Positions 28,918-41,151 of a DNA stretch of 64,000 nucleotides are shown in pieces; position 1 is the first letter of the stretch, and the number at the start of each line of letters is the position of its first letter. The stretch covers positions 192,857 to 256,856 of the forward strand of contig JAFLVJ010000001.1 of assembly GCA_022508375.1 (NCBI GenBank), given 5' to 3'. The notes below the pieces were generated by a model that had not been told where the DNA came from, did not search any database, and worked only from the letters and a program-made list of their open reading frames with translations. The position numbers and the translations under genes are program-made. This DNA is from Clostridiales bacterium (GTDB lineage Bacteria; Bacillota; Clostridia; Christensenellales; CAG-314).

Positions 28918-29471
28918 AGCACCACCCCAAACAGTACCGCCAACACGAAGTACACTATCGCCAGATTGCGAAAGTAATACAATGCGGTAGCGTTATTGAA
29001 ATACAGCTTTTTCGTCACGGCATAAAATCCTATTACACAACCGGTTGCCACGATGAAGGGAACCAATTTTTCGCCCCAAGTGAGCAGTAACGGGGTATAT
29101 AAATTAACAAGACTGAATACGCCGCATATGACGTAGTACACGGTAAAGAATAAATTCGCAAGCAAACCGAACTCCGCACGGGGAACGTTGTGTATGCGCG
29201 AGTAATTCAAAAACAGCCCCGCAACAAACGGAACAATGAACATTATCGCAACGCCAATGGCCAAAGAAACGAAAATAGCCATTACCAACGCGTAAGCGTA
29301 CGGAATATTAAGCGTCGAGCCGTACATCTGCATCACGAGTTGGGTGTTGCCGAGAATATCATGCCACGTGTACAAAACGTAAGCCAACACAAGGGCTATA
29401 CGAATAAGTATATTTGACAGTCGATAGTTGTTTTTGAATTTGCTAAACAATAAGGTTACACCTCTCGTCAC
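28914..29471 (-). CDS. Membrane protein of unknown function, 185 residues
   Basis: I do not recognise the family. About five hydrophobic segments with short loops and a basic N-terminus (KFKNNYRLSN) place it in the cytoplasmic membrane. It starts at a GTG that overlaps the holA stop by 4 bp (GTGA) and its own stop overlaps the M28 peptidase ATG by 4 bp, so it is translationally coupled on both sides. The best guess from context is a partner of the membrane-anchored peptidase, which is inference. Confidence 0.7.
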   Translation of the reverse strand: MTRGVTLLFSKFKNNYRLSNILIRIALVLAYVLYTWHDILGNTQLVMQMYGSTLNIPYAYALVMAIFVSLAIGVAIMFIVPFVAGLFLNYSRIHNVPRAEFGLLANLFFTVYYVICGVFSLVNLYTPLLLTWGEKLVPFIVATGCVIGFYAVTKKLYFNNATALYYFRNLAIVYFVLAVLFGVVL

Positions 29472-30424
29472 AAAGTTATTAGTTGCATGATGAGAATATT
29501 CATCGTTTCGTTTTCGTCCACAAATGCTTTCAACCGTTCGTCAGCAAGCGCCAGGTAATCCAGCGCGCGCTTAAGCTGCATGGGTTTGTAGCGATCGGCT
29601 GTGTCCTTGGCAAAGTTGATTGCGCCCATCTTTACGCCGAGATAACGCGCCATTTCTTCATCGGAAAAGCTTGAGGTTTTGACGTAGTAAACACGCCTAT
29701 AAAAGCTGTAAACAAGTCCGAAAAGAGAGCGCGCCTCTTCACCGCGAGCAATCAGTCCGCGATATATTTCCAATGCCCTACTCGGGTTTTTGTCGGCAAT
29801 TGCGCCGGATAAGTCGTATATGGCGTACTCGGCGTCACGGTGTACCAACATGTCGATGGACTCTGCCGTAATTTGCCCGTAGTCGATTAACTTGCGCGTT
29901 TCCACCTCGACGCGGGACATATCCTGCAGGCAATAGGTTGCGATTTTATCAGCGCACAGCGCGTCCACCGCCACACCGCTTTTTTTGCAGTAGCTTATTA
30001 TCCATTTGGCAATACTGCCCTTGTCAAGTCGCTCGCAATTAACCGTTTCAAGACCTTGTATATCGGCAAAAACTTTGTCCGAATCCGTCACGAATACAAG
30101 ACAAAAACTGCCGTCGCACTGCGCTATCGTTTCCGCAACGTGACGTTTGGCTTCCGCTTGCTTGTTGCCGTCGGGAAAGAGAAAGCTATCGCACACGACA
30201 AGCTTTTTTGGCGTAAACATCGATGGCGTAAAACATGCAAGCCGTATATCCTCAACGGTGGGCTGCTCCAACTTGTCGAGGCTAAATCCGTCGTCAAAAA
30301 TTCCGTACGCTTCGCAAATGTTGGCAACAGCCTTGCGCTTGAGCCAAGCGTCGTTTCCGTACAGACATAATGCACAGTAACTACCCGTCTTAAGTTTTTC
30401 CCTTAGTTCGAGAAATTTAATCAA
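29468..30424 (-). CDS. holA: DNA polymerase III delta subunit (clamp loader)
   Basis: Clamp-loader subunit that opens the sliding clamp. 318 residues with the HolA layout: N-terminal region YCALCLYGNDAWLKRKAV, MFTPKKLVVCDSF, a middle AAA+-like lid, and a C-terminal helical collar. No Walker motif, as expected for delta. The start is a TTG at 30424 with GAGGTGG close upstream. The order comEA-comEC-holA is conserved in Firmicutes, which supports the call. Confidence 0.92.
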   Translation of the reverse strand: MIKFLELREKLKTGSYCALCLYGNDAWLKRKAVANICEAYGIFDDGFSLDKLEQPTVEDIRLACFTPSMFTPKKLVVCDSFLFPDGNKQAEAKRHVAETIAQCDGSFCLVFVTDSDKVFADIQGLETVNCERLDKGSIAKWIISYCKKSGVAVDALCADKIATYCLQDMSRVEVETRKLIDYGQITAESIDMLVHRDAEYAIYDLSGAIADKNPSRALEIYRGLIARGEEARSLFGLVYSFYRRVYYVKTSSFSDEEMARYLGVKMGAINFAKDTADRYKPMQLKRALDYLALADERLKAFVDENETMNILIMQLITL

Positions 30425-30453: not shown

Positions 30454-32586
30454 TTATCTGAAAGATAAATATATTCTATCACCTTTTTGCACGATTGTAA
30501 AGTTCCCATACTTATTTGCGCCGTAATTGTAGCCGGCGGCGCTTTGATAGGGAGTAATTGTCAGCACTCCGCTTGGGCTCACAGCGTCGGTATCCGACAA
30601 GACGTACACGCCGGCAGATATTCCGCTTTCCATAAGTTTTCTCACGGAGTCAGCGCCTCCGTAGGCTATACAAATGTCTATTTCATCCACTGTTACGCTA
30701 ACACCGAAAAGAACTGCGTCGAAATAGGATTGCACCTTGATTGAATCGCCTGTTGTAGAGTTGGGGTATTGATTTATAACGCTTACGCCACGCTGTTCGA
30801 AATTTTCGCGCAGTATGCCATCTGTATCGGCGTCGAGAACGTACACCTTATTCAGTGGCAAACTCTCAAGCAAATCCAACGCAGCGGGCGTTGCCTCGGA
30901 GCTATCGGTAACATACAACGTACAACTTGTCAATCTGAAATGTTGCAAGAAATGCGTGGCGTTGTACAGGGCGGAATAATCATTGAAGTCCAATATAAGG
31001 GCGCCTTCACCGCTATCCGAAACTGCCGCAACCACGTCGCTGTCATCTGTTACGGCTACGTACGCCTGACTGCGCGCATGCGTCGGAATAACTGCGAAAA
31101 GTATGCTTACGACAAGCAAAATTGCACACATGGGATAGAAAATACGTTTACCCAGCTTACCGAAATTGACAAAACCGCCGAAGACAAACAAAACCGCGAC
31201 CAGTATCACGGTACACGCTGCAACGGCATAGACGGCAATCGTTGCGAAGTCAAGTTGCGCAACGGCCTTGGCGCACGCCACCACCACGCGAAGCACGTAA
31301 TCCGCCACCAATAACAAGTAATGAAATACCGAAGGAATAAGCCCGAATATACCCAGTGAAAAAGCAACTGATACAAGCGGAATAGCAATTATATTCAGGA
31401 GCGCCGAAAACAGCGGAACTTGTCCGAAGTTCAACGCAACTGTAAACACCGTTGCAACCACACACGACAGCGAAAGCAGTAAAGAATTGACAATATATCG
31501 TACTGCCTTATTGAGCTTACGCCTGCTAATCCACCTGTTTATCGGCGCATACACAGTGGCTATCCCATACACTGACAGGAAAGACAGTTGAAAGCCGACG
31601 TCAAACAGATAGAAAGGTCGCACGAGCAATATTAACAGCGCCGACCAGGAAATGGCGGAAAGCATATCGTACCTACCGTAGCACGCCCGTGCAATATAAC
31701 TGCACGCCACCATTACAACCGCCCTCATTACCGACGGCGTAAATGCGCATATATAAGCGTAAAAAAACGACGGAATAAGCACTAGCGCGCCTTCGATTAA
31801 CGGGTGTAAACACAGGCGTTTAAGCGCCAAACAAATAATTGCTACTATAAACCCAACGTGCAAACCGCTAACCGCCAACAGATGCAAAATTCCCGCACGG
31901 GAAAACGCGTAGTAAACGTCATCTGAAATGGCGCCTCTATCCCCCGTAAGCAACGCGTACATGACGCCACTGTTTTGTAGCATGTATTCTTGTGTTGCTT
32001 CGTATATGTAGGCGCGTATCTTTTCGTCCAACTTGGTTGGTCCTGGCTGCAAGTCAATTACTGTAGCATTGTCCAACTTGTAGGTGATATTGTCGCGTAT
32101 AAGGGACGTTTCTACATCCGACTTGACAGGGTGGGTGGAAAATGATTGTCCGCTGACAGTAACGACATCGCCGGTATTTAGTTGCGTACCGTATATTGTT
32201 ACCTCTACACGCCCGTGTATTTTGCGTCCGTCTGAAAGGGTGCACTCCTCCAAGTAGTAAACGCTATTTTGCGAGGCGTTCCTGTTAAGGTCGCAAACCC
32301 TGCCGCTTATTGTTACGCTTTCGCCAACGCTCTCGCGCTTATCCATGCGATACAGTGACAGGCGCGCAACTCCGAACCCAAGTATTGAAAATATCAACAT
32401 TGCAATGACAATTTTTTGCGCCCCATTTCGCCTTATTGCGCAAAACACAATCAACGCCACAAGAAGTACCGCAACCACCAAGCCACAATAGAAATTGCCA
32501 AAGTACCACTCGTAACAGGAATATATCCCCAAAATGAAAGTTACCGCTAAAAATAGCGGTACCCGTATATTAATCAATTTCTTCAT
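30454..32586 (-). CDS. comEC: ComEC/Rec2-family DNA uptake channel with degenerate C-terminal domain
   Basis: Polytopic membrane channel for single-stranded DNA during natural competence. 710 residues: N-terminal membrane segments and soluble OB-like domain (about 60-170), the Competence core with the hallmark HLLAVSGLHVGFI (about 235), about eight more membrane segments, and a C-terminal part (about 510-710) in the position of the metallo-beta-lactamase-like nuclease domain. That last part lacks the HxHxDH metal site: after GALILDFND it continues FLQHFRLTSCTLYVTDSSEATPAA with no histidine cluster. The start overlaps comEA by 17 bp. Confidence 0.9.
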   Translation of the reverse strand: MKKLINIRVPLFLAVTFILGIYSCYEWYFGNFYCGLVVAVLLVALIVFCAIRRNGAQKIVIAMLIFSILGFGVARLSLYRMDKRESVGESVTISGRVCDLNRNASQNSVYYLEECTLSDGRKIHGRVEVTIYGTQLNTGDVVTVSGQSFSTHPVKSDVETSLIRDNITYKLDNATVIDLQPGPTKLDEKIRAYIYEATQEYMLQNSGVMYALLTGDRGAISDDVYYAFSRAGILHLLAVSGLHVGFIVAIICLALKRLCLHPLIEGALVLIPSFFYAYICAFTPSVMRAVVMVACSYIARACYGRYDMLSAISWSALLILLVRPFYLFDVGFQLSFLSVYGIATVYAPINRWISRRKLNKAVRYIVNSLLLSLSCVVATVFTVALNFGQVPLFSALLNIIAIPLVSVAFSLGIFGLIPSVFHYLLLVADYVLRVVVACAKAVAQLDFATIAVYAVAACTVILVAVLFVFGGFVNFGKLGKRIFYPMCAILLVVSILFAVIPTHARSQAYVAVTDDSDVVAAVSDSGEGALILDFNDYSALYNATHFLQHFRLTSCTLYVTDSSEATPAALDLLESLPLNKVYVLDADTDGILRENFEQRGVSVINQYPNSTTGDSIKVQSYFDAVLFGVSVTVDEIDICIAYGGADSVRKLMESGISAGVYVLSDTDAVSPSGVLTITPYQSAAGYNYGANKYGNFTIVQKGDRIYLSFR

Positions 32587-33097
32587 AGTCTATTTCCGCG
32601 ATGAACAATTTATAAAAATTGTCGGCGTAGTCACCGCCAAGAGCCAACTCCAACTGATGTTTGTTAGTTATCTTGCCGTTTTGGTCCAAGTAATCGGCAA
32701 GCTTTGCGACAACTCCGTCGCTCAGTCCGTCAACATGCTGTCGCATAGCAATCAACACGCTGTTGGCGTTAACGCTACTGTACCGTATCGATCCGTCGTA
32801 AAAGTCAACAATCAAGTTCGTAACGCTTCCGTCAACATAAGGCGAACTCAATGTGGGAACCGCGCTTTGGGGCAATATCCCCGCAAGACGAAAAACGTCG
32901 TAGTAATCCGTTCCCGCTTTCACTTCATAGTATCCTTCGTGCTCTACCGCTCCACAAACGTATATGCGTACCGTTTTAGTTTCGGATTTAGTTGGAACTT
33001 CCACCTTGCCCAGCGGCGGTGAACAACCACCTGACCCGCATATAATGACGCATAAGGCAACCAACAAAGTAACGGTCATATTAAACCGTGTTCTCAT
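32570..33097 (-). CDS. comEA: ComEA-like competence DNA receptor with altered helix-hairpin-helix
   Basis: Membrane-exposed DNA-binding protein that hands DNA to ComEC. 175 residues: N-terminal signal segment ending GSGGC, a possible lipobox; an SLBB-like domain (about 42-105, VRIYVCGAVEHEGYYEV); and a C-terminal region in the place of the helix-hairpin-helix, VDGLSDGVVAKLADYLDQNG, where the GIG hairpin has become GLSD. Identification rests on SLBB plus position before comEC and holA. There is no good ribosome site: the start codon lies only 3-4 bp after the poly-U end of the structured RNA at 33101-33311, so how it is expressed is unclear. Confidence 0.8.
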   Translation of the reverse strand: MRTRFNMTVTLLVALCVIICGSGGCSPPLGKVEVPTKSETKTVRIYVCGAVEHEGYYEVKAGTDYYDVFRLAGILPQSAVPTLSSPYVDGSVTNLIVDFYDGSIRYSSVNANSVLIAMRQHVDGLSDGVVAKLADYLDQNGKITNKHQLELALGGDYADNFYKLFIAEIDYEEID

Positions 33098-33100
33098 TGT

Positions 33101-33311
33101 AAAAAAAGCCCCGCTATAGCCGTGTTTTACTGACGTTCAACCTAATTTAATAGGTGGGTAATCTGCCAAAAGCTATCAGTCTTTACCGGAGCCGAAACTC
33201 TTTGACTTTACGCAAAAGCCTGTAGTAACCTGACATCAGCGTTCGGACGCAATTCCCTTTTACGAACTGTAGTTGACGCATTTTGTAAAACTTGTCGGAC
33301 AAAGCAGGGTA
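33101..33311 (-). ncRNA. Structured ~210-nt RNA immediately upstream of comEA, class uncertain
   Basis: On the minus strand the 5' end (CCCTGCT...CCG...GTTTTAC, from about 33309) pairs with the 3' end (GTAAAAC...CGG...AGCGGGG) in a 7+3+7-bp closing stem, directly followed by TTTTTTT at 33107-33101, like an intrinsic terminator formed by the whole RNA. Inside are further stems: ACCTA/TAGGT (33136-33153), GTTCG/CGAAC (33240-33268) and AGTC-GAG-CTC-GACT (33178-33210). No frame is open across it. A promoter fits at 33318-33346. Size and end-to-end pairing suggest 6S RNA; another possibility is a raiA-motif-type RNA or a leader controlling comEA. I cannot match a consensus by eye. Confidence 0.55.
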
Positions 33312-33317
33312 TATTGA

Positions 33318-33346
33318 ATAGTATCATACATTTTTGTAAATTGCAA
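33318..33346 (-). promoter_or_regulatory. Predicted promoter of the structured RNA
   Basis: TTGCAA and TACTAT are 17 bp apart on the minus strand, placing the start about 7 bp before the closing stem of the RNA. The -10 box is imperfect (4 of 6). Confidence 0.5.
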
Positions 33347-33424
33347 ACGTAATAATTGATAATTTTGCGATCAACTGCAATAACCCCAAATGCCCTTTAC
33401 GTTAAAAACCGTCAAAAGTGTAGA

Positions 33425-33491
33425 TAAAAATGGAAACCGCAACAGACAATGACAAAGATTTTGTCTGTCCGATGTTTCCAACACGTCTATT
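33425..33491 (-). ncRNA. Candidate short RNA (~67 nt) ending in a terminator hairpin
   Basis: Downstream of a strong minus-strand promoter (33498-33526), a short segment leads into a large hairpin: GGAAAC (33432-33437) pairs with GTTTCC (33474-33479), and ACAGACAA (33442-33449) with TTGTCTGT (33461-33468), followed on the minus strand by TTTTTAT. Promoter, short body and terminator make a complete small transcription unit without an open frame. It could instead be an attenuated leader for the downstream RNA and com operon. Confidence 0.5.
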
Positions 33492-33535
33492 GCTGTAATT
33501 TTACTATACTTTTGTGTCATTTTCAAGCAATAGAC
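33484..33535 (-). promoter_or_regulatory. Strong promoter flanked by a 9-bp inverted repeat
   Basis: The -35 TTGAAA (33521-33526) and -10 TAAAAT (33498-33503) have a 17-bp spacer. A perfect inverted repeat, GTCTATTGC at 33484-33492 and GCAATAGAC at 33527-33535, brackets the promoter: one half just upstream of -35, the other at the start site. This would suit a regulator that bridges both sides. Confidence 0.55.
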
Positions 33536-33619
33536 ACAAGAAATTGTTGAAAATTGTCGTTTTTTGTATAAAAATAGACTTTTTTGTATATACAGTTCAC
33601 GTTATCATATACTAACGGC

Positions 33620-34165
33620 ATGTGTGGAAGATACCGAATTGATACAAATTACAAAGATATGCATGATATTTATCAAATACTTACGGACGATGACAATCCA
33701 TATTTTGTCGGTGATATTTATCCGTCAAACCAAGCGCCGATATTTACGGCAAACTCACTGCTCCCTGTTTTTTGCAAATGGGGTTTCGAAAACTACGACA
33801 GGAAGCTTCTCATAAACGTACGCGCGGAAACAGTAACGGAAAAGCCAATGTTCAGTACCCATTTCCTACAGGAACGTTGTGTGATACCCTGCAACGGATT
33901 TTATGAGTGGGACAGCGCCAAAAACAAATACTGCTTCACCCGCGCCGACGGCAAACTTTTGTATCTATGTGGCTTTTGTAAAGCAACAAACGGATTGAAC
34001 AGCTTTGCAATTCTCACTAAATCCGCTACCCCGCCCGTTGCCCAATTTCACCACCGTATCCCTGTAATCGTTGACGAAGCAAACAAAAATGAATACCTAC
34101 AAAACACACCATTTGCGAAATCATTTGTGAATCAAGATAACAATGTTGATTTAATATACGGTTAA
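33620..34165 (+). CDS. SRAP-family abasic-site protein (YedK/HMCES)
   Basis: Protects abasic sites in single-stranded DNA by forming a thiazolidine crosslink through its N-terminal cysteine. 181 residues. The start is set at the ATG at 33620 because the protein must begin MCGRY, with Cys2 as the reactive residue after Met removal; an in-frame codon at 33584 would bury it. Other family marks: NVRAETVTEKPMF (Asn and the active-site Glu region), CVIPCNGFYEW, and HHRIPVIVD with the conserved His. No ribosome site is seen and a -10-like element sits close upstream, so it may be leaderless. Monocistronic, divergent from the com region. Confidence 0.93.
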   Translation: MCGRYRIDTNYKDMHDIYQILTDDDNPYFVGDIYPSNQAPIFTANSLLPVFCKWGFENYDRKLLINVRAETVTEKPMFSTHFLQERCVIPCNGFYEWDSAKNKYCFTRADGKLLYLCGFCKATNGLNSFAILTKSATPPVAQFHHRIPVIVDEANKNEYLQNTPFAKSFVNQDNNVDLIYG

Positions 34166-34260: not shown

Positions 34261-34336
34261 GGCCCTATAGTCTAGTGGCCTAGGACGTTGGCCTCTCACG
34301 CCGATAACATGGGTTCGAGTCCCATTAGGGTCACCA
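34261..34336 (+). tRNA. tRNA-Glu (anticodon CTC)
   Basis: A full cloverleaf can be drawn: acceptor GGCCCTA with TAGGGTC, anticodon stem TTGGC/GCCGA around the loop CTCTCAC giving anticodon CTC, and T-arm GGGTTCGAGTCCC. The discriminator base is A and CCA is encoded. It reads GAG codons. A terminator-like hairpin follows at 34370-34396. Confidence 0.95.
34316..34333. repeat. 18-bp direct repeat, copy 1 (tRNA-Glu 3' end)
   Basis: CGAGTCCCATTAGGGTCA, the T-arm and acceptor 3' half of the tRNA, recurs exactly at 34499-34516, 183 bp away. A duplicated tRNA 3' end is the usual footprint of integration at a tRNA or of a lost tandem tRNA. Confidence 0.8.
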
Positions 34337-34563: not shown

Positions 34564-37500
34564 TTAGTCTTCTTTTGTCCAAACGTTAATGGCGTTGTTT
34601 TCACCATAGTACCAATACTGTTCGCCATCCTCTGCGGAACCGTTTTCGTAGGGATTTTCCGCGCTGAAATAGTAGCGGGTCGCATTGATAAACGTTGTAT
34701 TGTTAGTAGCAACAATCTTACCACTGACACCGAGTGTAGCATCCCATTGTGCTTTCGTTCCGTGATAGTAAACCGTCGTGAGCGCGTTGCAGTTTTGGAA
34801 AGCGCTTGCCGCAACGGACGTAACGTTACTGCCCACCACTACGTATTCCAACTTAGTACAACCGGAGAACATACTGCCGGTGATTGTTGTAACACCGTCG
34901 CCGATAATAACGCTTGTAAGCGAAGTACAACCCATGAAAACATTTGTTCCCAGCGTCGTCACGCTATCGGGAATAACAACGCTTGTGAGCGCGCTACAAC
35001 CGTTGAAAGCGGAGTTGCTGATGGTATTGATCTTGTTGTGAAGCGTGACGCTTTGCAAGCTCTTGCAGTTTTGGAAAGTGTTGCCCTTAATCTGGGTGAC
35101 GCTCTCAGGAATCGTAATACTTGTAAGTCCCGATCCATAGAATACACCGACGTTAGCGGTTGCAAGGGACGAAGACGCGCCCAAGTATGTAACCGTAGCG
35201 GGAATAGTAAAGTTTGCAAGGGCAGTACAATTTTTGAATGCCGAGTTTCCTATTGTCGTAATCGCGCCCGAAATATTTACACTGCTGAGTGCCGAACAGT
35301 CTTCAAATGTGCTTGCCGGAATATCCACTGTCGTTGCCCAATTTACCGTCGTGATTGCCGTGTTCTTTTGAAGAAGGTTAGTACCCACACTTGTTACCGT
35401 CGAAGGTATGGTAAGACTGGTCATCTTCGTTCCATAGAAGGCATAATTGCCAATTGTTGTAACTGATGCGGGAATTTCAAACTTGACACTCAACGGACAG
35501 TTGTAGAACGCGTAGGTATCAATGGTCGCAAGCAGACTGTCATCTTCGAAGGTAACACTGGTGATTGACGCATTGATAAACGCCGCAGGACCAATCTTGG
35601 TTACGCTTGCAGGTATAGTAATGCTTGTAAGCGAGGTACAACCCTTGAAAATACCGTTCGTACTGGCGCTCACGCTACCTGTAGTCGACTGAATGGTCGT
35701 TACGTTGCTACCGAAAGTCACATTGGTGAGGCTGGTGCAATTTTCGAAGAAGTTAGCCGCATCAATCAAGTTGCAGTTGATTGTAGCCTCTCTAAGCGCG
35801 GCGCAACCGCTAAACATAGCGGTAAGGCTCTTGGTTGTGTCAACACCGCTACCGATGGTCGCCGATACAAGCGATTTGCAGTTTTTGAATGCGGAAGTGC
35901 CAAGCGAAGTCACGGTATCGGGAACAACAATACTTTCAAGCGCGGAACCTTCGAATGCGCTTGTGCCAATTGTGGTTACGGACGACGGAATAGTAACGCT
36001 TGTTAATTTCGTGCCGTAGAACGTTTGTTGCGGAATTTCCACTACTCCCTCGGGAATAGTTATACTTTCCAGTCCCGAATTATAAAAGGCGCTTTGACTT
36101 CCGAAAGATACGATACCTTCCGGCAATTCAATACTCTTGAGACCTTTACAGTTGTAGAAGAACTGCGTGGGAATTTCCGTCATATCGCTTGGAAGTGTAA
36201 CGCTTGTTAGCAATTCACAATCCCAAAACATAGCAACGCCCAGTTGCGTACCAGCATGGAATGTTACCGATTGAAGTTTCTTAGATGCGCGGAATGCGCT
36301 ACGCATGACAGTTTCTACCGTTGCGGGAACTTCAACTGTGATAAGTCCCGTATTATCGAATGCATAGCAACCGATAACTTTTACACTGGAAGGAATTGTG
36401 AAACTGGTAAGCGACGTGCAGTTTTGGAACACACCCTTGTCACTCGAATCTGTATTCGGACCGATATTTTGTAGGAAATACTCGCCGTTGTCGTTAGACT
36501 TGACAGTAACGCTTGCAAGCGCCGAGCAGTCAAAGAAACCGTAATCGGGAAGCGTAACAAGTCCGTAACCGATGACAAGCGTTTCAAGACTTGCGCACTT
36601 GCGGAAAGCGCCGTCGCCAAGCGTAGTTAAACTGTTGGGAAGCGTGACGGACATAAGTCCCGACTCGCGGAACGCCTCGGTACCAATGGAGGCAATGCCC
36701 TCGTGAAGCGTGATGCTCTTTAGCGCCGAACACTTGTAAAACGCTTGGTTGTTGATTGCCGTAATGGCGCTGTCAAGCGTAACGCTGCTGAGTGCCGTAC
36801 ATCCGTTAAAGATACTGTCACTCAACCTGTTACCGTACACCGTTGCGCTAACGAGCGCCGTACAGGAATTAAATGCCGACGCTCCCAACTCGGTAACGGT
36901 TTCGGGAATGATGATGGATTGAAGTTTCGAACTTTGGAATGCAGACGCGCCAATTGTCGTAACACTTGCAGGTATGGTAATACCGGTAATTCCTGCGCCT
37001 TGGAAAGCAGACGTACCGATACTTGTGACCGTTGCAGGTATATCTATTGCAGTAAGCGCGCTACAACTGTTAAACGCTTGCGCGCCAATGGAAGTGAGCG
37101 CGACGTCGCCTGTGAACGTGACTGTAGCAAGCAACGAGCAGGTCTGGAATGCCATGTTTTCAATCGTCTTTACACCGGCAATCTCGGCGAAAACAAGTTT
37201 GGAGCAACTTTGGAATGCGCCTGTGCCAATGGTATCTACACCACCAATGGTCACGCTTTCCAACTTGGTACAACTACGGAACGCGTAAGCGCCGATAAGT
37301 TGCATGCCTGCAGGCAAGGAAACGGACGTGAGACTTGAACAGTTGTAGAACACACCGTTGGTGTTCGTATCGGTCGCAGTACCAAGCGTCTTGAGGGCGC
37401 TACCCTCAGCAAACGTGAGGCTGGAAAGGCTGGGATTGAACCTGAACGCGGCTGTTCCTATAGACGTGACGCTTGCAGGAATTGTAACACTTGTGAGCGC

Positions 37501-40500
37501 TGCTGCGTTTGTACCCGATGCTGCCGAACCGGAAAATGCGTTTGTACCGATGGTAAGAAGTCCGCTGGGAAGGCTAAGTTCGACAAGTCCCTTCAACATA
37601 TAAAACGCCTCGTCGCCAATTTCCTTGACGCCGCCGTCCGCCATGGTGACAGACTTGATGCTATCGGCATTGTAGAATGCGCGGTAGCCAATTTTTTGTA
37701 CGGTTACTGGAATGTAAACGTTTTGCGTGACGGTTGCGGCATTAGCGTTCATGTCCTTGAATGCATTTTCCGCAATTTCTTTGACGGGTTTTCCGTCAAT
37801 TATAGCCGCGATGTTAATAGTTGTTACTGTTTTGAGAGAATCCTCGTAACCCGTAACGATGTAATACGTTTCGTCGTTGCTAAGGGTATATTTGATACCT
37901 TCCGTGGGCTCGGGACCGGGAACGAACTCGGGCCAGATCTCAATTTCGCCGTCTTGGTCGTAATGCCAGTAGTTGCCTTCTACATAGGGAAGGTCCTCAC
38001 TGTAATAATAGATTGTAGCACGCGAAAGTACCGATTGATTGCTTGCGTCAACGTTAATATCGTTGAAATCGGCAATACCACCCATGTAGTATATACTGGT
38101 GAGAGCTGAGCAGCCGTCGAACACATCCCTACCAATAGTCGTCAATGACGTAGGAAGAATGATAGATTCGAGCGACGAACAACCCTTGAATGCGTACATT
38201 TCGATTTTTTCAATGGACGCGTCGTCTTCGAAGATTACTTTGGAAAGACTCGAGCAGCCTTCAAATGCGTTGGCGCTGATGGTAACAACGCCACCGGGAA
38301 TGGTAATGGATTCCAACTTGTCGCAGTTAAGGAATACTCTTCCCTTGATAGTGTTAATACCGCTACCGAGTTCGATAGATACAAGTCCCGCTCCTTCAAA
38401 GGCGGACGCCTCGATGCTTGTAACGGAATCGGGTACCGTATAGGATACAAGGGACGTACAACCCTTAAACGCCGAATTTTCGATAGAGGTTATCTGTCCT
38501 GCAAACGACACTGATGTGAGCGACGTGCAGCCTTCGAAAAGAGCCGTATTTATACGCGTAACCGATTCGCTGAGAACGGTAACGCTTACAAGATCTTTAC
38601 AGCCTGCAAACGCACTACTTCCGACGTTGGTAACATGTGCGGGAACGGTAAACTCCGTAAAGCCTGTGCGTTGGAAAGCAAACGCTTCAAAGGACGTAAT
38701 TGTTGAAGGGATATCAATGTGCTTGAGCGACGTGCAACCGCTGAACATGCCGTTGGCAATTGCGGTAAGACCGCTACCCAACGTGACGGAGGTTAAGGAC
38801 GTGCAGTTTTCAAATACCTTATTTCCGAGTGCCGTAACGGAATTGGGAATGACGATACTCTCAAGCGCCGTGCAATCCTTGAAGGCGCCCATGCCAATCT
38901 GGGTGATACCTTCGCGAAGTGTAATTGTTCTGAGTGAACTCATACCCGAGAAGAGCAACGAGTCAACTGAATTGATACCACTACCCAAAACTACTTCTTC
39001 AAGCGAGCTACAGCCTGCAAATACGCTGGTACCGAGGTATGTAACGGAATCGGGAATTACAATACTACCCAAAGTTGCACATCCACTGAAAGCAGCTGAG
39101 TTAATTCTACTGAGGTTTTGCGGAAGCTCGATACCGTCAAGCACAGAGCAATTTTGGAATGCGTACGCGCCGATAATATCAAGCTTGCTTCCGCTTTCAA
39201 ACGAGACGGATGTAAGTGATGCGCAGCCGTAGAAAGCATATGTGAGGATACGCGTAACGTCAGCGGGAATAACAACACTTCCAAGACTTGCGCAGTTGTT
39301 GAAAGCGTAGTCGTTAATAACGGTAACAGTACTTGGAATCTCAATGCTTTCAAGTTTCGTGCACCCATCGAATAAAGCTACGCTAATCTCCGTGAGGTTA
39401 CAATTAAGTTCAATTGTTTTTAGCGATTCGCAGTACCTAAACGCGCTTGCGCCAATTGTAGTGACGGAACTGGGAACGATCAAGCTCGTAAGTGAAGTAC
39501 AACTGTAAAACGCGGCGGTTCCAATTGCCGTAAGTCCACTGGGAAGGACGATTCCGTCAAGTGACGTGCAACCGTAGAAAGCGTTATCGTCTATGCGCGT
39601 AACTGCCGCAGGAATCGTAAATGATGTAATCTTGGTGCAGTGAAGGAAGGTACCCTCGTAGATTGCTGTGAGGTTAAGTGTTCCCTCCACTGTGAGTACC
39701 ATATCCGAGCAATATGCAAAGGAGTACGGACCGATGACCGTAACTGACGCAGGGATTGTGAAGGACTTTAGCGAATAACAATGATAAAATACGCCAGTGA
39801 GGTTGTTAGCCGCGTCGGCGTCGGCGCCGATTGATTTCAAATTGGGATTAACGCCCTTCACCTCTTCAAGGAGTACGCACTCGGAGAACATACCCGCGGG
39901 AAGCACGTCGATACCGGAACTGAGCGTAACGGAAATAAGTTTTCCGCAGCCAACGAAAATTCCCTGTCCCAGTTGCGTGACGGAATTGGGAAGCGTAATA
40001 CTCGGAAGGTTGCGGTTGTAAGCAAACGCGCGCTCTCCAATAAATTCAAGTCCATCTGCAATGATGTATTCGATAATACCGTCGCAAACGTTGAACGCGT
40101 AGGATTCGATTTCACGCACACTACCGGGAATGTAAACGCGAACAATTCTATCTGCATTTTCAAACGCATTCTTACCGATAACGGTAACGCTATTGGGAAT
40201 GTACAGCGTTTGGAATGCTTGCGGATCGCTATCTGTAGGCATACCGTTCATGTTGTAGAAAGCTCTGTTTTCGATAATCGTTACAGGAACGCCTTGGTAT
40301 GTATCTGCAATGACGATATTTTCTTGAGTCAAGATATCATCGGTATAACCGACAACGGAAGCGCTTTTGCCGTCTGAGGAAAGCTTATATACAATACCGT
40401 TGCTTGCAGGTTTAGTGCTATAATCGATACCGCCGCAGATTGTGCAAACGCTGTTTTCGTAGTCATGAGAACCAACGGGATCGAGTGCGTCGCGTTCAAC

Positions 40501-41151
40501 GTGTGTGGGATCGTTTTTGCATGCACGGCGTTTTTCACCGGCAGTTCCGCAGTTGGGTTCTTTGGTAACGCTCCACTCACCCCAATCGTGTCCGGTTGCG
40601 GGAATGGATACGCCGTTTTTCTCATCGGTATATTGCGTACCGTGGAAGGTTACAGTTGCAGTTATATTTTTGCTACCGGCAAGAAGACAGCTTGCGTTAC
40701 GAATCGTCTCGCTACTAATACTTGCCTTAACTTCCTCGGTATGATCACAGTTTTCGCAGCTGAAGATCGCCGTTGCGGCAGAGTTGTCACTCTCCCATTT
40801 CCAAACGACTTCGTTGCTCCAAACGTGCTCCGTAGTGAGATCTCGTGTTTCGACGTGCATAGCGTCGTTCTTGCATACGCGACGTTCCTCGCCGGGCTTG
40901 TCACAATTTGCCGGCGTTGAAACGCTCCATTCGCCCCAGTCGTGTCCAAGCGCTGCAATCGGCTCGGTTTGGGTGTCGTCGCCATCGACGCAAGTTCGAG
41001 AGCGCACGCCAGCTTCCGTACAAGTCGGGGCTTTCGTGATGGTCCATTCATTGTAGGTGTGCTCGTGATTTGTATCATCACATGCGCTAAATCCAAACGC
41101 AAGCGCGATAATTGAGCATGCTACAAGGAGTCCAACAAATAGTTTCTTCAT
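34564..41151 (-). CDS. Giant BspA-like leucine-rich-repeat lipoprotein, 2195 residues
   Basis: Surface lipoprotein, probably an adhesin or ligand-binding protein. A signal peptide ends in the lipobox FSAC (Cys at about 24). Residues about 28-260 hold cysteine-containing modules repeating W-x-x-x-K/S-x-P-x-C and GHDWGEWSV. Two long arrays of LRR_5 (BspA/TpLRR) repeats of about 23 residues follow (about 265-1030 and 1070-2150), built on patterns such as LTSVTIPASVTSIGTSAFxGC. The arrays are separated by a linker near residues 1035-1075, and the tail is YGENNAINVWTKED. There is no cell-wall sorting signal, so the lipid is the anchor. GAAGGAGG precedes the ATG. It follows the 1643-residue gene by 62 bp and is probably co-transcribed. 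The ligand is unknown. Confidence 0.9.
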   Translation of the reverse strand: MKKLFVGLLVACSIIALAFGFSACDDTNHEHTYNEWTITKAPTCTEAGVRSRTCVDGDDTQTEPIAALGHDWGEWSVSTPANCDKPGEERRVCKNDAMHVETRDLTTEHVWSNEVVWKWESDNSAATAIFSCENCDHTEEVKASISSETIRNASCLLAGSKNITATVTFHGTQYTDEKNGVSIPATGHDWGEWSVTKEPNCGTAGEKRRACKNDPTHVERDALDPVGSHDYENSVCTICGGIDYSTKPASNGIVYKLSSDGKSASVVGYTDDILTQENIVIADTYQGVPVTIIENRAFYNMNGMPTDSDPQAFQTLYIPNSVTVIGKNAFENADRIVRVYIPGSVREIESYAFNVCDGIIEYIIADGLEFIGERAFAYNRNLPSITLPNSVTQLGQGIFVGCGKLISVTLSSGIDVLPAGMFSECVLLEEVKGVNPNLKSIGADADAANNLTGVFYHCYSLKSFTIPASVTVIGPYSFAYCSDMVLTVEGTLNLTAIYEGTFLHCTKITSFTIPAAVTRIDDNAFYGCTSLDGIVLPSGLTAIGTAAFYSCTSLTSLIVPSSVTTIGASAFRYCESLKTIELNCNLTEISVALFDGCTKLESIEIPSTVTVINDYAFNNCASLGSVVIPADVTRILTYAFYGCASLTSVSFESGSKLDIIGAYAFQNCSVLDGIELPQNLSRINSAAFSGCATLGSIVIPDSVTYLGTSVFAGCSSLEEVVLGSGINSVDSLLFSGMSSLRTITLREGITQIGMGAFKDCTALESIVIPNSVTALGNKVFENCTSLTSVTLGSGLTAIANGMFSGCTSLKHIDIPSTITSFEAFAFQRTGFTEFTVPAHVTNVGSSAFAGCKDLVSVTVLSESVTRINTALFEGCTSLTSVSFAGQITSIENSAFKGCTSLVSYTVPDSVTSIEASAFEGAGLVSIELGSGINTIKGRVFLNCDKLESITIPGGVVTISANAFEGCSSLSKVIFEDDASIEKIEMYAFKGCSSLESIILPTSLTTIGRDVFDGCSALTSIYYMGGIADFNDINVDASNQSVLSRATIYYYSEDLPYVEGNYWHYDQDGEIEIWPEFVPGPEPTEGIKYTLSNDETYYIVTGYEDSLKTVTTINIAAIIDGKPVKEIAENAFKDMNANAATVTQNVYIPVTVQKIGYRAFYNADSIKSVTMADGGVKEIGDEAFYMLKGLVELSLPSGLLTIGTNAFSGSAASGTNAAALTSVTIPASVTSIGTAAFRFNPSLSSLTFAEGSALKTLGTATDTNTNGVFYNCSSLTSVSLPAGMQLIGAYAFRSCTKLESVTIGGVDTIGTGAFQSCSKLVFAEIAGVKTIENMAFQTCSLLATVTFTGDVALTSIGAQAFNSCSALTAIDIPATVTSIGTSAFQGAGITGITIPASVTTIGASAFQSSKLQSIIIPETVTELGASAFNSCTALVSATVYGNRLSDSIFNGCTALSSVTLDSAITAINNQAFYKCSALKSITLHEGIASIGTEAFRESGLMSVTLPNSLTTLGDGAFRKCASLETLVIGYGLVTLPDYGFFDCSALASVTVKSNDNGEYFLQNIGPNTDSSDKGVFQNCTSLTSFTIPSSVKVIGCYAFDNTGLITVEVPATVETVMRSAFRASKKLQSVTFHAGTQLGVAMFWDCELLTSVTLPSDMTEIPTQFFYNCKGLKSIELPEGIVSFGSQSAFYNSGLESITIPEGVVEIPQQTFYGTKLTSVTIPSSVTTIGTSAFEGSALESIVVPDTVTSLGTSAFKNCKSLVSATIGSGVDTTKSLTAMFSGCAALREATINCNLIDAANFFENCTSLTNVTFGSNVTTIQSTTGSVSASTNGIFKGCTSLTSITIPASVTKIGPAAFINASITSVTFEDDSLLATIDTYAFYNCPLSVKFEIPASVTTIGNYAFYGTKMTSLTIPSTVTSVGTNLLQKNTAITTVNWATTVDIPASTFEDCSALSSVNISGAITTIGNSAFKNCTALANFTIPATVTYLGASSSLATANVGVFYGSGLTSITIPESVTQIKGNTFQNCKSLQSVTLHNKINTISNSAFNGCSALTSVVIPDSVTTLGTNVFMGCTSLTSVIIGDGVTTITGSMFSGCTKLEYVVVGSNVTSVAASAFQNCNALTTVYYHGTKAQWDATLGVSGKIVATNNTTFINATRYYFSAENPYENGSAEDGEQYWYYGENNAINVWTKED

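Follow-up and report, generated by a model that had tools for sequence, protein, structure and literature searches.

The closest described systems are the 6S RNA loci of Escherichia coli, where a dicistronic ssrS-ygfA transcript is processed into 6S RNA (excerpt of PMC7641849), and of Streptococcus pneumoniae, for which the same transcript level of 6S RNA and tRNA-Lys is reported (excerpt of PMC8414754). 6S RNA of E. coli and 6S-1 RNA of Bacillus subtilis accumulate in the stationary phase (excerpt of PMC7430163), and a hairpin at the 3' side of the central bubble has been described for 6S-1 RNA of Firmicutes (excerpt of PMC8876501). In titles and beginnings of abstracts of papers that mention 6S RNA together with comEA or comEC, an earlier description of the junction reported here was not found; in the excerpt of PMC6856214, 6S RNA and ComEA are named as separately upregulated. 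From the 64,000-nt stretch of Clostridiales DNA analyzed here (the window), a rod-like RNA of about 210 nt with paired ends can be deduced on the minus strand between positions 33311 and 33101, directly followed by a comEA-like gene.

Searching positions 32950 to 33650 with cmscan at E-values up to 10 yielded five Rfam matches, the best of them being the 6S RNA family RF00013 at positions 33104–33313 of the minus strand over the full length of the model (1–187 of 187; E = 5.9e-7), with a score of 41.5 bits that is below the Rfam gathering score of 46.4, a curation threshold. The sequence-only reading had proposed such a search for 6S RNA, the raiA motif and SRP RNA; the two latter are not among the five matches. 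Together with other RNA families, they were ruled out for this element, as only 6S RNA reaches a meaningful E-value nearby. When all Rfam models are applied at their curated thresholds, the sole match in the window is a tRNA. The element at 33101–33311, an RF00013-like RNA ending in seven U, also gives the only 6S match in the 1.63-Mb genome. Folded on its own, the sequence does not reach a significant energy (z = -0.82, with 37 of 200 shuffled sequences folding equally well), so that the case rests on identity and conservation. The predicted structure is nevertheless above chance in the alignment comparison and by the Rfam match.

Within a set of 101 genomes, comprising the window's own and 100 relatives, a 6S model match at E-values up to 0.001 is present in 72 and exceeds the cut-off in 43. 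Of the 25 genomes from the window's genus, which belongs to a group of gut bacteria, 21 match the model and six exceed the gathering score; a diverged 6S RNA is thus added which goes unnoticed at the Rfam threshold in this genome and in 19 of the 25 searched from the genus. By DNA similarity, orthologues are found in all 25, with the model matches falling at the same places, and this includes the four genomes without a model match under strict filters (G003, G006, G012 and G024, the element of G024 being cut by the contig end). In two genomes of another genus (G034 and G038), the 6S RNA scores above the gathering score. At the order level, one genome (G058) possesses two 6S matches over the cut-off, with 69.0 and 56.7 bits.

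DNA similarity identified 28 loci, from the 25 genus genomes and from G029, G034 and G038, and after omitting L027, where the contig starts inside the 6S RNA gene, 27 copies were aligned (24 belonging to the genus and three to two further genera within the family); order-level matches of about 30 nt (L029 and L030) were left unused. In the resulting rod of 50 pairs, 97.5% of the cells are paired, compared to 25–49% with slid partners, double-sided changes occur in 16 of the 50 pairs and none of 500 shuffles reaches the pairing or covariation value, controls that are helpful rather than strict because structure and test share one alignment and the species are kin. An alignment of relatives for testing covariation had likewise been suggested from the letters of the window, and with its compensatory changes it supports the rod. 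In the outermost helix of the closing stem (5' strand at 33303–33309, alignment columns 3–9; 3' strand at 33109–33115), 99.5% of the cells are paired, and the outermost closing-stem pair changes from C-G to U-A in 9 of 27 copies, whereas five of six pairs in helix 4 and three of seven in helix 3 are invariant and hence uninformative. A hairpin of the type CCUA...UAGG (33140–33155) on the 3' side of the central bubble is found in all 27 copies, either as CCTA/TAGG (15) or as CCTG/CAGG (12), so that the fourth pair is A-U or G-C, and is the counterpart of the hairpin described at this side of the bubble for 6S-1 RNA of Firmicutes. Of the two options offered by the sequence-only reading, the one in which 6S RNA and com genes have a common boundary is supported by the match to the Rfam model, by orthologues scoring above the threshold, by the covariation and by the bubble hairpin, and there is hardly any doubt that the element represents the 6S RNA of this organism, ordinary but diverged. 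The rod, which would consist of closing stem, central bubble with its 3' hairpin and apical stem, presumably binds the housekeeping RNA polymerase.

On the minus strand, the sequence of the element is UACCCUGC...GCGGGGCUUUUUUU; next come ACA and, at 33097, the comEA start codon ATG. The single-sequence fold closes the rod with 7 bp, a small block of 2 + 3 bp and again 7 bp, and in the alignment the helices comprise 7, 4 and 7 pairs, in agreement with the initially noticed 7 + 3 + 7-bp stem. Behind this stem, one C and seven U (33101–33107) are found, the latter also as first read, and the start codon lies 3 nt after the U-tract, where 3–4 bp had been given. A distance of 3–7 nt between this end of a presumably polymerase-binding RNA and the start of a DNA uptake operon is kept by 19 of 25 genomes from the genus (L001–L017, L020 and L028), although the mutual relatedness of these genomes weakens this and all other genus-wide counts. 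In two further genomes, the ATG is 9 nt (G024) and 14 nt (G007) behind the U-tract, and in four of 25 the genes are separated by 194 (G022), 315 (G015), 364 (G016) and 3,661 nt (G017). In three genomes of two other genera (G034, G038 and G029), comEC is located behind the 6S RNA gene, with comEA missing in between. Among 35 other 6S loci of order and family, one is without a downstream ORF, and in the remaining 34 the next same-strand ORF of at least 80 codons is -2 to 1,126 nt away, in 7 of 34 within 69 nt; these distances result from crude ORF calling, and those for L124 and L125 were corrected to 26 and 18 nt, as a TTG had been picked ahead of the likely ATG. Accordingly, the tight abutment of comEA is, judged from these gene distances, a trait of the window's genus and not general to 6S RNA genes.

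The gene at 32570–33097 (minus strand) is a 175-codon ORF encoding a ComEA-like lipoprotein, which matches the NCBIfam model ComEA_MAG0490 with E = 8.1e-8 (32.2 bits, cut-off 98), whereas a Pfam match was not obtained at E = 0.001. ComEA_MAG0490 is matched by 17 of 20 homologues (E up to 0.1), a weak SLBB match occurs in 15 of 20, and a profile search finds PDB entry 8dfk, ComE operon protein 1, at E = 7.3e-4. All 20 translated comEA ORFs have 166–176 codons; 13 columns are invariant, and a cysteine behind the signal-like start is nearly so. The end of comEA overlaps by 17 nt with comEC (30454–32586, minus strand; Pfam Competence PF03772, E = 8.5e-52), and in L127, L128 and L130 the comEC matches span about 710–720 residues. 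The next gene on the same strand (29468–30424) is holA-like, encoding a DNA polymerase III delta-like protein (Pfam PF21694, E = 7.1e-14).

An AGGAGG-like ribosome site is absent before the comEA gene of the window, as had already been noticed in the sequence-only reading. The 16S tail pairs best with UAGCGGGGC, a part of the closing stem itself (-5.5 kcal/mol), in the G-rich stretch of its 3' strand at 33109–33115. For comparison, energies of -6.6 kcal/mol or lower are reached by 20 of 32 window ORFs and 2 of 28 internal control sites (ORFs of at least 150 codons, crudely called, taking the best of several starts). At the tight junctions, Shine-Dalgarno (SD) energies range from -4.1 to -10.8, with 17 of 19 between -5.3 and -6.7 and two outliers, L015 (-10.8, strong but still in the stem strand) and L028 (-4.1). 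In all 19, the best pairing lies 7–14 nt ahead of the ATG and falls on the closing stem, in its G-rich 3' strand; hence, the best candidate SD of comEA sits inside the 6S RNA. However, the comEA genes separated from 6S show energies of -5.3, -3.2, -1.1 and -0.8, i.e., equal or weaker. A weak SD is consequently a trait of these comEA genes and no proof of a special junction, and this finding counts against a special role of the latter.

Promoter-like elements TTGCAA (-35, 33341–33346) and TACTAT (-10, 33318–33323, with a TG one base ahead) are spaced by 17 nt and located 6 nt ahead of the 6S start on the minus strand, suggesting leftward transcription of 6S RNA from an extended -10 promoter of its own (33318–33346). 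By eye, the TTG-type -35 and the TG-extended -10 are kept at the same place in L001–L014, and several more distant loci apparently have the -10 further upstream. A promoter score of at least 8 points is reached in 19 of 27 loci, being a best-of-many score and thus partly due to chance, and the proposed promoter was not reported by a stricter consensus scan. The region at 33410–33590 upstream of it has a repetitive look, yet is single-copy in the genome. Between the promoter and a divergent SRAP peptidase gene (33584–34165, plus strand), two sizeable inverted repeats were seen by eye, GGAAAC..GTTTCC and GTCTATTGC..GCAATAGAC, at 33430–33477 and 33486–33532. Farther on, a tRNA gene is encoded at 34261–34333 (plus strand), and six of 15 loci inspected, including the window's own, carry a tRNA gene close to 6S. 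A 2195-codon ORF (34564–41151, minus strand) with many leucine-rich-like repeats resembles a BspA-type surface protein.

The terminator-like combination of closing stem and U-tract also ends the 6S RNA in all seven family genomes in which no com gene was found beside it and in 20 of the 35 other loci of order and family. Being present at 6S RNAs unlinked to com, it looks like the family's general 6S terminator rather than a dedicated com switch. Consequently, the second option of the sequence-only reading, a closing stem serving as dedicated terminator gate of the DNA uptake genes, is not supported in that form. The putative terminator may still act as a gate, since comEA is without another visible promoter. 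The 10 nt behind the stem contain 6.65 T in com-linked copies (n = 23) versus 8.0 in unlinked ones (n = 12; p = 3e-4 ignoring kinship), with this 10-nt span reaching into the start-codon region in the linked copies. The T run lengths are 5.7 and 6.9, respectively (p = 0.02, kinship again ignored), and within the genus (21 linked versus 4) the p-values are 0.03 for the T count and 0.46 for the run length. These apparently weaker U-tracts before com genes fit a leaky termination.

Another terminator-like hairpin, followed by a T-rich stretch, is located in comEA codons 3–9 (33072–33089, minus strand). Within codons 1–16, such hairpins occur in 11 of 23 loci (20 comEA and 3 comEC), compared to 1.92 expected from synonymous shuffles, and all 11 belong to the 14 loci (L001–L014) whose DNA is most similar to that of the window. 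By eye, the core CGG/CCG pairs hardly vary. When comparing the folding energy of codons 1–12 with synonymous shuffles in the 23 loci, fractions from 0.024 to 0.999 resulted, which individually are mostly unremarkable. At 33062–33097 and in the early comEA codons of L002, L003, L005–L010, L012 and L014, the inverted repeat is of the ACGGTT...AACCGT type with a T-rich tail, and within these signal peptide codons makes use of CGG, which is uncommon from codon 31 on (12 of 138 arginine codons in 23 pooled genes).

Three other explanations of the junction have to be considered. A promoter of comEA could reside in the 3' arm of the 6S RNA gene (TTGAAC-16-TATAGC), giving rise to a nearly leaderless mRNA and making 6S and com mere neighbors. 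Such an mRNA would account for the weak SD, and indeed, both hexamers are present in the window copy, and versions with 9 points are found in L003 and L016 at 10–12 nt from the 6S end. However, both hexamers fall on conserved bases of 6S RNA, the TAT is missing in several linked copies (L013, L014, L023 and L028) and the best internal promoter scores are alike in com-linked (8.0, n = 22) and unlinked copies (7.7, n = 40). Moreover, an internal site was reported neither in the window copy nor in L009 by the consensus scan, a strict one which misses the proposed 6S promoter too. A comEA promoter within 6S thus found little support, as none is convincing by scan or score comparison, and we regard this explanation as improbable. 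Even less credible is a degenerate or scarcely expressed comEA-comEC operon that has lost promoter and SD, with a neutral 6S adjacency. The divergence of comEA from the Pfam and NCBIfam models would agree with such a decay, as would a normal SD missing also in comEA genes apart from 6S, but the uniform length of the 20 ORFs with their invariant columns and cysteine, the extent of the comEC matches and the persistence of the junction in 19 of 25 genus genomes argue against it.

The closing stem might also be a dedicated attenuator, i.e., a riboswitch-like leader sensing a signal and gating comEA-comEC, to which the 6S likeness would be secondary. The direct succession of stem, U-tract and ATG, the SD-like bases within the stem and the excess of second terminator-like hairpins in early codons (11 of 23 loci, with 1.92 expected) are in its favor. 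Nevertheless, an attenuator alone would not need the conserved 6S rod and bubble hairpin, the same 6S end is present in the seven family genomes without com genes beside it and an antiterminator pairing was not noticed on plain inspection, making this the least probable of the alternatives.

Overall, the junction is best explained by a 6S RNA with comEA-comEC being read by polymerases running past the 6S terminator, an interpretation in which we have considerable confidence. In this run-past model, closing stem and U-tract would normally end the 6S transcript, and polymerases passing this point would generate a 6S-comEA-comEC transcript. Considering the likely 6S promoter, the lack of a convincing comEA promoter, the 3-nt gap and the shared strand, com mRNA would most simply arise by read-through; whether it is also the main route of comEA-comEC expression appears evenly balanced to us. 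If so, a growth-phase RNA and competence genes would share one promoter. As the start region of comEA overlaps the 6S end and the SD-like bases belong to the 3' strand of the closing stem, the folded end of the RNA should hinder comEA translation. Given the accumulation of 6S and 6S-1 RNA in the stationary phase elsewhere, a coupling of DNA uptake to the growth phase is conceivable. More tentatively, and in our view rather doubtful, every comEA-comEC mRNA of this genus might carry 6S RNA as an obligatory leader at its 5' end, with the closing stem being both 6S terminator and cover over the comEA ribosome site. Com proteins would then appear only upon failure of 6S folding or termination, for example, at changed polymerase speed in the stationary phase, and the hairpin in the early codons would be a second stop.

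Compared with known systems, the element resembles the Firmicutes 6S-1 type (RF00013) in length, closing stem, central bubble with 3'-bubble hairpin and full-length model match, but differs in scoring below the gathering cut-off (41.5 versus 46.4). Within the family, members of another genus, g4 (L121, L124 and L125; G027, G035 and G040), also possess a protein gene closely behind a 6S RNA with U-tract, at distances of 16, 26 and 18 nt from the end of the 6S model match. Its product begins with MA[DE]N...LLIDAEN and is presumably NYN-like. There, SD-like pairing (-6.1, -6.6 and -8.1) is found between 6S and the gene, thus outside the RNA, whereas in the window it is inside. In lactic acid bacteria, the neighbors of 6S are rarA/uspA (excerpt of PMC8414754) instead of comEA-comEC. 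The streptococcal 6S RNA-tRNA-Lys operon likewise shows a probably co-transcribed gene behind 6S, in that case for a tRNA and here for proteins. In E. coli ssrS-ygfA (fau), a protein gene directly follows 6S in the same orientation, and so it does in the window, where 3 nt separate the U-tract from the comEA ATG. In contrast to ssrS-ygfA, the downstream genes are for DNA uptake and the start codon is located 3–7 nt from the U-tract.
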